A stretch of DNA of 64,000 nt, taken from the NCBI RefSeq assembly GCF_913060805.1, contig NZ_CAJXTC010000014.1, forward strand, positions 1 through 64,000, written 5' to 3'. Origin of the DNA: an uncultured Draconibacterium sp. (GTDB lineage Bacteria > Bacteroidota > Bacteroidia > Bacteroidales > Prolixibacteraceae). Below are positions 4,543 through 63,928 of this stretch, piece by piece. The position numbers were made by a program, and so were the translations under genes. Position 1 is the stretch's first letter; the number at the start of each line of letters is the position of its first letter. The notes below the pieces were generated by a model, which did no database searches, had not been told where the DNA came from, and saw only the letters and a list, made by a program, of their open reading frames with translations.

Positions 4543-4545
4543 AAA

Positions 4546-4608
4546 GGATTAAGGATGAATAATAAATGATGAATTTAGATTAACGATTGAAGATTTGAGA
4601 TTAAAATA
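4546..4608. repeat. Degenerate 7-nt periodic array after dnaB
   Basis: Starting 3 nt after the dnaB stop codon, nine consecutive units in exact 7-nt register can be read: ggattaa, ggatgaa, taataaa, tgatgaa, tttagat, taacgat, tgaagat, ttgagat, taaaata. The units drift but share a GAT/TAA core. Similar heptad arrays with other words occur at 27634, 28812, 30922, 49981 and 63612-63928. Confidence 0.7.
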
Positions 4609-4715
4609 AATACAAGTACGCGATGAAATCACTTCTGAAATCAAAAATCGTTAATCATCATTGGCAAATCAAGTTGAACCAAAATCCCGTTTCGCTGTAA
4701 TAATACAAAAACAAC

Positions 4716-5981
4716 ATGCGCACACTCATAAAAATATTCCTTTTGCCGGTTCTGCTCTTTATGGCATTGCATGCCGGAGCCATTTCGCTGCTCATCCCAA
4801 TGGATGACACGCAAAAGGACCACCTGAAATCGTACGGTATTGCTTATTGGGTGCTGGAACAGGACATTGAGGTAAAGTGGCTGCTCAACTACCGTGGAGG
4901 CAGTTTTTTAATGCAGCACTACCCCGAAATTGAAAATGAGTGCGTGATTCGTGGAGTTAGTTTCGAGGTAATAAGTGATGCACAAGCGTCGGGAATTTTA
5001 AACGAAATTGCGCAGCCCGATGTTAACCAGGATGCCGTGGCGATGAATAAAGCACCGAAAATTGCCGTTTACTCGCCACCCAACAAACAACCCTGGGACG
5101 ATGCGGTTACTATGGTTTTAACCTACGCCGAAATTAACTACGATATTATTTACGACGAAGAAATACTAAACGGCAACCTGAAGGATTACGACTGGCTGCA
5201 CCTGCACCACGAAGATTTTACGGGGCAGTTTGGTAAATTCTGGCGCTCGTACCAGCACATGCCGTGGTACCAGGAGGAAGTGAGCATTAACAAACAGCTT
5301 GCACAAAAACTGGGTTTTATGAAGGTGTCGGAAATGAAATCGTTTGTAACGCGCGAAATACAAAAATACGTGCAAAACGGCGGCTTCCTGTTTGCCATGT
5401 GTGCGGCTACCGATACTTACGATATTTCGCTGGCAGCAGTGGGTGTTGACATTTGCGAAAGTATGTTCGACGGCGATCCCATGGAAGCTAACGTTGATGA
5501 GAAACTCGACTTCCACAACACTTTTGCTTTCGAGAATTTTAAGCTGGAAAAAAGTCCTTATGCCTACGAGTTTTCGAATATTGATGCTACCGAACACAGG
5601 CATGTAGCCCGTGAGAACGATTACTTTACCTTGTTTGATTTTTCGGCCAAGTGGGATCCGATTCCTACTATGCTTTGCCAAAACCACCACAACCTGATTA
5701 AAGGTTTTATGGGGCAAACAACAGCTTACCGCAAAGAGGTACTAAAATCGAACGTGCTTGTACTGGGCGAAAACAAACCGGCCAACGAAGCGCGCTATAT
5801 CCATGGTGAGCAAGGCAAAGGATTCTGGACATTTTACGGTGGCCACGATCCGGAAGATTACCGCCACCTGATCGGTGATCCGCCAACCGACCTGAGCCTG
5901 CACCCCAACTCTCCGGGTTACCGGCTAATTTTAAATAATGTGCTGTTCCCGGCGGCTAAGAAAAAGAAACGGAAAACTTAG
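4716..5981 (+). CDS. Secreted conserved protein of unknown function (asparagine synthetase B-named family)
   Basis: A 421-residue protein with a cleavable signal peptide (about 1-22, hydrophobic core LLPVLLFMALHAG). The mature part is rich in aromatic residues and contains the sequence YDWLHLHHEDFTGQFGKFW around residues 162-180 and GGHDPEDYRH near the C-terminus, followed by a basic KKKKRK tail. From memory, relatives in Bacteroidota are often named asparagine synthetase B, yet no N-terminal Cys nucleophile amidotransferase domain or PP-loop synthetase motif is visible, so that name should not be trusted. A ThuA/class I glutamine-amidotransferase-like fold is possible. It is flanked by unrelated genes. 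Confidence 0.75.
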   Translation: MRTLIKIFLLPVLLFMALHAGAISLLIPMDDTQKDHLKSYGIAYWVLEQDIEVKWLLNYRGGSFLMQHYPEIENECVIRGVSFEVISDAQASGILNEIAQPDVNQDAVAMNKAPKIAVYSPPNKQPWDDAVTMVLTYAEINYDIIYDEEILNGNLKDYDWLHLHHEDFTGQFGKFWRSYQHMPWYQEEVSINKQLAQKLGFMKVSEMKSFVTREIQKYVQNGGFLFAMCAATDTYDISLAAVGVDICESMFDGDPMEANVDEKLDFHNTFAFENFKLEKSPYAYEFSNIDATEHRHVARENDYFTLFDFSAKWDPIPTMLCQNHHNLIKGFMGQTTAYRKEVLKSNVLVLGENKPANEARYIHGEQGKGFWTFYGGHDPEDYRHLIGDPPTDLSLHPNSPGYRLILNNVLFPAAKKKKRKT

Positions 5982-7757: not shown

Positions 7758-8147
7758 CCCCAAGGCGCTGCCCCGGGTTTAAATGACAACGCACTTTCAG
7801 CGCGTATATACCTGCAATTTGTTTATTCTAAAAAACTTTCATGATTCCCGGGAATCACCAACAGGAATGAAAGTGAGGCCTGTAGATAGCATTTCTTAAG
7901 GACATTCAGATTACGAGGCGCATACAACGATTGTTCTCTGAATAGCTTATTGATTGCGCCTTTAATTTACTTTTACATCAACCCCGGGTTTCACCCGAGG
8001 TTAATCATATTTTATCCCTTCGGGATATTGAGAAGAGTTAGAAAGTTATGCAGAGTTACCTGACCTGCTATGGCAGAATTCCAATCCTTTTATGGCGCTG
8101 AAAGCGTTGAATATAATTAACCCGGTGCCTAGCGCCGGGATGAAATA
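7758..8147. repeat. Cluster of REP-like palindromic modules
   Basis: Three modules share the plan: GC-rich hairpin ending CCGGG (or CCGAGG), a TTAAT/TTTAAA spacer with ATATT, then a second small hairpin. Copies lie at 7758-7804, 7980-8027 (stem AACCCCGGGT with ACCCGAGGTT, then TATCCC/GGGATA) and 8080-8147 in inverted orientation (CCCGG...CCGGG at 8121-8139). A related copy lies at 63676-63735. They look like dispersed extragenic palindromes; no transposase is nearby. Confidence 0.6.
7842..7857. repeat. Perfect 16-bp palindrome
   Basis: TGATTCCCGGGAATCA reads the same on both strands. It is nested in an 8-bp inverted repeat ACTTTCAT (7835-7842) and ATGAAAGT (7867-7874). Confidence 0.6.
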
Positions 8148-8245
8148 ACCGAAAGGAATCGTCCGGCGAAGTATGCTGATCGAAGCTAATTGGTTCTCCC
8201 GGACGAAACGCAAACGGCAATATTCATAAAAGGATGGGGGCTTTC

Positions 8246-27633: not shown

Positions 27634-27682
27634 GATTCTAGTTTAAAGTTCAGAGCTACGAGTTGCGAGTTTTAAAACCCGA
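27634..27682. repeat. 7-nt periodic array abutting the nadE start
   Basis: Seven units in exact register: gattcta, gtttaaa, gttcaga, gctacga, gttgcga, gttttaa, aacccga. All but the last begin with G. The array starts at the base next to the nadE start codon and so occupies its 5' leader. Confidence 0.65.
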
Positions 27683-28811: not shown

Positions 28812-28846
28812 TAGCTACGAGCCACTAGTTTCTTGCAACTCGAAAC
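28812..28846. repeat. 7-nt periodic array after gldB
   Basis: Begins 1 nt after the gldB stop: tagctac, gagccac, tagtttc, ttgcaac, tcgaaac, each ending in C, in exact 7-nt register; a sixth imperfect unit follows. Confidence 0.6.
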
Positions 28847-28852
28847 TAAAAA

Positions 28853-28882
28853 ACAAAAAAGCCCGGCAGAAATCTACCGGGC
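28853..28882 (-). terminator. Terminator of the DUF1080 gene
   Basis: GCCCGG (28861-28866) pairs with CCGGGC (28877-28882), extended by AGA/TCT across one mismatch; the minus-strand T-run follows. Confidence 0.85.
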
Positions 28883-30918: not shown

Positions 30919-30921
30919 GAA

Positions 30922-30956
30922 GGATTAAAGATTATCGATTAAGGATAAATTGAAAG
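30922..30956. repeat. 7-nt periodic array after pfkA
   Basis: Four nucleotides after the stop: ggattaa, agattat, cgattaa, ggataaa, ttgaaag in exact 7-nt register. The first four share a GAT core and resemble the array after dnaB. Confidence 0.65.
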
Positions 30957-30993
30957 AAAGCCGGTTTGTTGAAGCAAGCCGGCTTTGTTTTAT
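30957..30993 (+). terminator. Terminator of pfkA
   Basis: Stem AAAGCCGGTTTG (30957-30968) with CAAGCCGGCTTT (30975-30986), one G-U pair, 6-nt loop, followed by GTTTTAT. Confidence 0.85.
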
Positions 30994-31020
30994 CTAAGAT
31001 TTTAAAAATACAATTTATCA

Positions 31021-31084
31021 CCCCTACTGACCTCCCCGAGGGGGAGGAAATATCCCCCTTCGGGGGATTATAGGGGGGTCAGAC
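31021..31084. repeat. Compound palindromic repeat
   Basis: Two small hairpins, CTCCCC-GAG-GGGGAG and TCCCCC-TTC-GGGGGA, sit inside outer arms TGACC (from 31028) and GGGGTCA (to 31081). A G/C-rich repeat of this plan is common between genes in Bacteroidota; only one copy is seen here. Confidence 0.6.
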
Positions 31085-39592: not shown

Positions 39593-39603
39593 GCCACAAA
39601 AAT

Positions 39604-49450: not shown

Positions 49451-49981
49451 ATGCGCAAACTCAGAAATATAGAACTTGGCCGTTTAAGCGTTGAGGAATA
49501 CAAACAATCGACCAAAACACCCATTGTTGTGGTGCTCGACAATATCAGAAGCTGCAACAACATTGGCTCGGTGTTTCGCACATCGGATGCTTTACTGATT
49601 AATAAAATCTACCTGTGTGGGATTACAGCCACCCCTCCCAATAACGAAATCAGGAAAACTGCGCTCGACGCTGAAAAATCGGTTGACTGGGAATATTTTG
49701 AGCACACCGAAGAAGTGGTAAAAAAACTGCAGCAGGAAGGTTTTAAAGTTTATGCCATTGAACAAGTGGAAAACAGTATTATGCTGCCCGATTACCAACC
49801 TGCAGACGATGAAAAAGTTGCATTGGTTTTTGGCAACGAAGTAAAAGGCGTAAAACAAAGTGTGGTGGATCTTTGCGATGGCAGCATTGAAATTCCCCAG
49901 TACGGCACCAAACATTCTTTCAATATTTCGGTAAGTGCCGGAATTGTTTTGTGGGATATTTTTCAGAAAATTTCAAATTAA
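49451..49981 (+). CDS. TrmH/SpoU-family RNA 2'-O-methyltransferase
   Basis: A 176-residue SPOUT methyltransferase. Motif 1 is VVVLDNIRSCNNIGSVFRTSDA (about 25-46), motif 2 ALVFGNEVKGV (about 118-128), motif 3 IEIPQYGTKHSFNISVSAGIVLWDI. It modifies a tRNA or rRNA ribose; the exact site is unknown. The short length means the catalytic domain only, with no N-terminal substrate domain. The ATG at 49451 is the first after arcA; the upstream in-frame ORF extension overlaps arcA and is not conserved-looking. Confidence 0.88.
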   Translation: MRKLRNIELGRLSVEEYKQSTKTPIVVVLDNIRSCNNIGSVFRTSDALLINKIYLCGITATPPNNEIRKTALDAEKSVDWEYFEHTEEVVKKLQQEGFKVYAIEQVENSIMLPDYQPADDEKVALVFGNEVKGVKQSVVDLCDGSIEIPQYGTKHSFNISVSAGIVLWDIFQKISN

Positions 49982-50057
49982 AGGACAAACCACTAAGACA
50001 CGAAGGACACAAAGAAGAATACGTATAAACTTAGCGGCCTGGTATTCATCGTGGTAA
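49981..50057. repeat. 7-nt periodic arrays forming an inverted pair
   Basis: After the methyltransferase stop: aaggaca, aaccact, aagacac, gaaggac, acaaaga, agaatac (49981-50022). Then cttagcg, gcctggt, attcatc, gtggtaa (50030-50057). The second set is roughly the reverse complement of the first (ACCACTAAGACACG versus ACCACGATGAATACC...CTAAG), so the region may fold back on itself. Confidence 0.5.
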
Positions 50058-50168
50058 ATCGTTTAAATGTCAAGCTAAATTATTGATAGCCTGACTCAGA
50101 GTCAGACCATCAATTTCTGGAATCTCAAACATTTTCCTTATTTTTAAGGGAAACTAAAATATTCCCAA

Positions 50169-63611: not shown

Positions 63612-63646
63612 CTGGATGCTGGATACTTGATGCTGGATGCTGGAAG
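63612..63646. repeat. 7-nt periodic array after the HAD gene
   Basis: Directly after the stop codon: ctggatg, ctggata, cttgatg, ctggatg, ctggaag, five units in exact register with consensus CTGGATG. This is the clearest heptad array of the window. Confidence 0.8.
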
Positions 63647-63735: not shown

Positions 63736-63928
63736 CTATTTGCGTATTGCTATTTGCATATTGCCTACTCATTCCCTCAATAACTCATTCACTTAAAGAG
63801 GGAAATTATTAAACTGCTGAAATGTCAAATTGTAAACTGACAACTGTGACTGTAAACTGAGACTAGTTACTATAAACCTATAGTTCTATTATCACTTTTG
63901 ACTTTGAACTTTTACCTTTTGCCTTTAA
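63736..63928. repeat. Run of successive 7-nt periodic arrays with three word families
   Basis: 63736-63797: ctatttg, cgtattg, ctatttg, catattg, then drifting units. 63811-63886: gtaaact, gacaact, gtgact (6 nt), gtaaact, gagacta, gttacta, taaacct, atagttc. 63894-63928: acttttg, actttga, actttta, ccttttg, cctttaa. The last array overlaps the stop codon of the minus-strand gene at the window edge. Confidence 0.65.

Follow-up and report, generated by a model that had tools for sequence, protein, structure and literature searches.

Heptad arrays at gene edges in a marine Draconibacterium genome: recurring word families and a possible origin by slippage and inverted copying

The STRR sequences of cyanobacteria are tandem heptamers lying between genes, CCCCAGT being one of their words, while REP/BIME and MITE palindromes are dispersed intergenic inverted repeats arranged in mosaics, for which we know of no body built of heptads. 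The closest known system is that of the GGGANTN heptamers of Xanthomonas, for which the accessible part of Rehm et al. 2015 (PMC4692102) describes a period of 7 with two free positions, an orientation on the sense strand near stop codons and on the opposite strand before starts, inverted pairs (70 and 75 cases), and the same gene context in 83% of cases between two species, with lengths that vary. These arrays consist of a single G-rich word, which was interpreted there as a G-quadruplex (PMC4692102). A second system is that of the TAACTGA direct repeats, reported from Beggiatoaceae, cyanobacteria and five Bacteroidetes in the accessible text of MacGregor 2015 (PMC4679880). They are formed by one exact word, which in its main genome is mostly found right before starts, and some of the Bacteroidetes gaps that contain it also carry other heptamers. 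The same text attributes the polymerase explanation of the 7-nt unit to Mrazek et al. 2007, who, as cited in these two papers, found 7 nt to be the commonest longer unit of long simple sequence repeats and proposed polymerase slippage.

The stretch of DNA analysed here (the window) covers positions 1-64000 of the 5.48 Mb genome of a marine bacterium, whose nearest relatives are Draconibacterium (its gldB is 92% identical to that of D. mangrovi). The heptad arrays of this window belong to word families that recur at different sites and in different species, and they represent a variant of a kind of repeat that has been described before. Their anatomy is nearly that of the Xanthomonas heptamers, with another word: the tandem 7-nt units have fixed and free positions, lie near stops on the sense strand, and keep their gene context in relatives while their length changes. 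Unlike GGGANTN, they use many words, mostly poor in G-runs. As tandem GGGANTN (two units) was found 0 times in the 864 kb covered by our word-absence counts, G-quadruplexes were rejected for want of G-tract words. With the TAACTGA repeats the arrays share their nature of intergenic heptamers at gene edges, and with the STRR that of intergenic tandem heptamers, but they differ from both in their words, which are many; two tandem copies of TAACTGA, or of CCCCAGT, were likewise found 0 times in 864 kb. In contrast to the long heptanucleotide runs of Mrazek et al., they are degenerate, dispersed and ordered, and one of their families, the GATTAAC element, resembles REP/BIME and MITE sequences in being a dispersed palindrome. 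The first-pass annotation of this DNA knew of no description of such a class in Bacteroidota, but the TAACTGA arrays of five Bacteroidetes (accessible text of PMC4679880) already provide one. For a multi-word heptad system in this phylum, no account was found in the accessible parts of the close literature (MacGregor 2015; Rehm et al. 2015), in a search that took in few subscription papers.

Period 7 in the window and in related genomes

A strict 7-nt array directly after the stop codon of dnaB, as proposed in the first-pass annotation, was confirmed by the lag-7 identity score of the segment, which was compared, as for every named place, with 2000 dinucleotide shuffles (Table 1). The array is flanked by dnaB (Pfam) and an ORF starting at 4716, and its units read AAGGATT AAGGATG AATAATA AATGATG AATTTAG ATTAACG ATTGAAG ATTTGAG ATT. 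The shuffle mean was 5.0, and lags 5, 6, 8, 9 and 10 reached only 3-7 at the same place. Five of the six places that had been named as heptad arrays were borne out in this way, whereas the one at 49981 was not, its best lag-7 score lying at 3 against a shuffle mean of 4.1. The arrays fall outside long ORFs. Rfam and tRNA scans of the whole window gave no result.

Table 1. Coordinates of the heptad arrays and associated features in the window
Feature	Position	Strand	Evidence
Heptad array that follows the stop codon of dnaB and forms the left arm of an inverted pair	4544..4602	+	Lag-7 score 18; 0/2000 shuffles as good
Core of the left arm, GATTAAC element	4578..4600	+	23-nt inverted repeat with 4634-4656, 83% complementary; matches the dispersed element
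Right arm, inverted GATTAAC copy	4634..4656	-	Inverted repeat; match to the dispersed element; DNA fold z -2.1, RNA fold z -2.3
Heptad array between the nadE start and the promoter side of gldB	27640..27671	+	3/2000 shuffles as good; relatives carry other words at this slot
Heptad array 3' of gldB, ahead of a terminator-like hairpin	28813..28860	+	0/2000 shuffles
Heptad array 3' of the phosphofructokinase gene, ahead of hairpin 30953-30990	30920..30949	+	2/2000 shuffles
GATNCTN array 3' of the HAD-hydrolase gene	63612..63644	+	0/2000 shuffles
Heptad array of the ACTTTTG type, sharing the gap of 63612..63644	63889..63926	+	Lag-7 score 17
Gap at the named place 49981, without a period-7 array	49982..50168	.	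Score 3; 1912/2000 shuffles as good

The window also holds other repeats. A dispersed intergenic repeat that is not built of heptads (ACCCC...CCCCGAGGGGG type) is present at 31019-31076, the segments 7844-7876 and 8131-8208 are repeated in at least 3 other gaps of stretches from the same genome, and TTCGAAGGAGGAACGACTGAGAAATCTGT represents another repeat family, present in several gaps of this genome.

In the gaps syntenic with the window in ten Draconibacterium relatives, lag 7 gave 39 segments against 2.0 in shuffled sequence, lag 14 gave 22 against 1.6 and lag 13 gave 6 against 1.6, with the remaining lags at 0-4 against 1.2-3.4. The gaps of the window itself gave 6 against 0.0 for lag 7 at score 11. 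When trinucleotide triple recurrences were pooled over the relatives, the window and 22 stretches of its own genome, 394 were counted at lag 7 (119 shuffled), compared with 117 at lag 6 (113) and 181 at lag 8 (125). In an unbiased sample of the own genome (400 kb, of which 39 kb are gaps), the excess was weak, with 11 against 4.6 for lag 7 at score 9, where lags 6 and 8 gave 7 and 7, and with 2 against 0.6 for lag 7 and 4 against 0.8 for lag 8 at score 11. The window is therefore richer in arrays than its genome (6 in 6.7 kb of gaps against 2 in 39 kb), and the genome-wide excess of period 7 over periods 5-10, which the first-pass annotation had named as the check on its own proposal, was found only weakly in the unbiased sample. 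Decayed coding sequence or chance would suit the place at 49981 and this weak excess, but it is barely credible for the five places at which only 0-3 of 2000 shuffles scored as well, and for the many lag-7 segments in the gaps of relatives. Decay of coding sequence is disfavoured in particular as the arrays in gaps keep period 7.

Seven is not the exclusive period. In stretches of G252 and G232 (L168-L200), period-8 arrays of the CAAAGGTT and CTAAGATG types occur together with period-7 arrays, and in G252, which belongs to family f6, lag 8 gave 31 against 7.4 and lag 7 gave 43 against 5.2.

Word families, kept slots and steps of seven

The same words recur between sites, contrary to the earlier suggestion that each array has its own. 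For GATNCTN, 150 middle units standing between matching neighbours (all 150 listed rows, from three genomes) keep positions 1, 2, 3, 5 and 6 at 0.93-0.99, compared with 0.51 for position 4 and 0.58 for position 7. Across 31 genomes, the mask with positions 4 and 7 free had 816 matches, against 74 for the mask with positions 2 and 5 free, which was the single alternative run. A test of column heterogeneity by permuting matches was set aside for these two counts because one variant unit produces two mismatches in one column. Among the 21 places listed, GATNCTN was followed by AACT/CTCG-type words at L023, L025, L026, L028 and L038, and by CTTTTGCC-type words at L023, L026 and L039.

The second family, the GATTAAC element, is dispersed and ordered. 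With at most one mismatch, GATTAACGATTNNNGATT had 46 matches against 2 for the reversed control, and several copies form facing pairs about 80 nt across, such as 4578 plus and 4639 minus. Its flanks, taken from 30 loci listed, 8 of them without a forward match, show by eye the recurring order GAATTTC GAATGAT GATTAAC GATTTTA GATTTCA GAAG, and GATTAAC was the first unit in 8 of the 8 fourfold GAT matches that contain it.

Both families recur in a sample of 296 Bacteroidota genomes, in which reversed patterns served as controls. GATNCTN was found in 33 genomes against 7 for its control, and GATTAACGATTNNNGATT in 28 against 13, the latter excess coming mainly from family f6 of the same class (16 genomes matched, 0 with control matches). 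The reversed GATNCTN control was itself abundant in three genomes (28 matches in G188, 16 in G116 and 26 in G214); these genomes may therefore have amplified heptad words of other kinds.

The first-pass annotation had taken the word to be free, and had argued from this for copying rather than a binding site. As five GATNCTN columns and the order of the GATTAAC units are kept, and as both recur in other families, this argument does not hold and a binding site has to be considered. Each heptad would then be a core of 4-5 nt with a free linker, and the tandem sites, in 3' UTRs and between genes, would be occupied by a protein that binds either DNA or RNA, in the latter case a small one of the RRM or cold-shock type. 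This would account for the fixed and free columns of GATNCTN and for the sense polarity at stop edges described below, and the genome does have two RRM proteins. RbpB of Bacteroides is a global RNA binder, and 26 of its peaks on mRNAs fall in 3' UTRs, although a link between RbpB and heptads was not found in the accessible part of that paper (PMC11697453). Tandem binding sites are nevertheless rather unlikely in our view, given the occurrence of period 8 and of slots that are kept while their words change.

Such slots are seen when relatives are compared. An array was present in 20 of the 39 slot-genomes of relatives where the window has one, and in 2 of the 191 at gaps without a window array (29 window gaps, the related genomes not being independent). 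Gap length is variable where arrays are present and mostly near constant where they are not; the gap at 39593, for example, departs from this and reaches up to 1993 nt. At slot 27634, the words AGTTTAA AGTTCAG are found in the window and G024, with the same type in several more distant relatives; among closer relatives, seven have CCGAAG-type words (lag-7 score at least 8) and three others a broken form, and L050 has TCCAGTT words. At slot 30919, the window has GGATTAA, compared with GAATATT GAATGTT in G013 and G012. The slot at the HAD gene holds a GATNCTN array in the window, G007, G024 and G005; in G030 no such array is evident, and the slot retains one of the ACTTTTG type, as also found at window 63889.

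The nadE-gldB gap (slot 27634) of G024 and G029 also contains an extra insert, about 160-185 bp long and bounded by the inverted sequences CCTGGTGTGAA / TTCACACCAGG, which is MITE-like and missing from the other genomes compared.

For the array at dnaB, the distance from AAGGAT to TTGAGAT was 58 nt in G000, 44 in G007, 58 in G024, 65 in G002 and 58 in G005, all of which are 2 modulo 7. Gain and loss in whole heptads was thus upheld in five of the six genomes with both anchors (one or both are missing in five more); in G009, the sole right anchor is 180 nt away, or 5 modulo 7. In pairwise comparisons, which are not independent, 74 of 303 gaps of at least 4 nt inside arrays were multiples of 7, against 157 of 1229 outside. 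The earlier proposal that a drifting word with a constant period is a trace of copying is therefore supported by the words that change at kept slots and by the whole-heptad lengths at dnaB, but not in its assumption of a free word.

The pairing and ordering of these units could also come from a mobile palindromic element of the REP/BIME or MITE type, which would be moved by a transposase and to whose arms the heptads would be incidental. Inverted pairs are dispersed, modules are ordered, and the heptad element occurs three times in tandem, at about 130 bp each, downstream of dnaB in G005 (L087-L090), all of which would be expected of such an element. However, solo arms are numerous, the words of G252 differ widely and yet have complementary arms at single loci, and a clean empty site was not noticed. 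A mobile palindrome is therefore considered unlikely.

Gene edges, strand polarity and matching arms

The arrays touch gene edges, as the first-pass annotation had observed, with 0.80 of the 10 arrays of the own genome lying at most 10 nt from a gene boundary, compared with 0.14 by random placement, and 0.67 at most 10 nt from a stop, compared with 0.12 (n=9). Arrays of Draconibacterium are clearly close to stops, and in G252 this tendency is weak (0.21 against 0.12).

With targeted loci included, GAT-type words near stops favoured the sense strand by 66 to 16, and those near starts the opposite strand by 30 to 12, a G/C skew that array-free start edges share (105:36, 108:57 and 164:82). Over five sets, arrays at stop edges showed a G skew in the sense direction (79 to 29), although not significantly in the own genome alone, and array-free stop edges were without such a skew (43:54, 60:68 and 84:74). 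After comparison with array-free edges, an inward polarity therefore holds on the stop side only and not at both edges. No consistent rule emerged from purine skew or from stop-codon content.

In G252, whole gaps are often filled by words that are specific to the locus and have complementary arms, and the partner edges of 42 array-bearing gaps scored 13.7, compared with 9.3 (sd 0.5) when permuted. The edges of G252 gaps without arrays also matched above chance (11.1 against 9.2), which is probably an effect of terminators. In the own genome, edge matching was at chance level (8.86 against 7.75, sd 0.75, n=7), as it was in its targeted set (8.20 against 8.21, n=15). Mismatches between arms showed no excess of G.U over A.C (54 to 56), in a test of low power because terminator-like controls were equally even (58 to 64).

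Complementary arms that fill whole gaps in other genomes could form RNA hairpins between stop and start, which would couple or insulate neighbouring genes and whose words would need only to pair. The edge matching in G252 and G232 agrees with this, as does the co-directionality of G252 gaps with lag 7 (28 of 33, compared with 214 of 301 overall). However, with no G.U excess, no edge matching in the own genome, and arrays also found between convergent genes, a role of this kind appears very unlikely.

Slippage and inverted copying as a possible origin

The arrays exist in many copies with fixed unit order and columns, they persist at corresponding gaps of related species, their length changes by whole heptads and their edges lie near gene boundaries. 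The best explanation, to which we give a probability of about 0.48, is that dispersed repeats between genes evolve here through slippage in 7-nt steps and through copying in inverted orientation. In the dnaB array we would then see the left arm of a single copy from a dispersed, heptad-built family, the GATTAAC type, which often occurs as two inverted copies with a short gap between them and is one of several word families here. Array length could change by replication slippage in 7-nt steps, and the matching arms could result from inverted template switching, an origin of hairpin arms that is in print (accessible part of PMC8794818), or from the spreading of a whole palindrome. Family copies would spread from gap to gap, and growth would be halted at the gene edge by coding sequence, so that a regulatory role would not be required.

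A copying step of 7 nt is plausible and in part supported. However, neither the two free and five fixed columns nor the words common to distant families are explained by slippage alone, and the sense G skew of stop-edge arrays is not predicted by it. The observation of 7-nt arrays in the first-pass annotation was mostly right, and its view of the words as free was wrong.

It is also conceivable, although quite doubtful, that the gene-edge arrays of Bacteroidota and Xanthomonas form one word-independent class, in which the word is replaced over time but the step, the slot and the polarity on the stop side stay the same. Such a class would be shaped by a shared machine with a reach of 7-8 nt, either a replisome step or tandem sites of an RNA-binding protein, and the quadruplex reading in Xanthomonas would be incidental.

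The presence here of a Xanthomonas-like anatomy with words lacking G-tracts argues against quadruplexes as its general cause. The question of why 7 nt is a favoured unit becomes testable through the two free and five fixed columns and the kept slots with changing words, and the complementary arms of G252 with their locus-specific words also help to test it.
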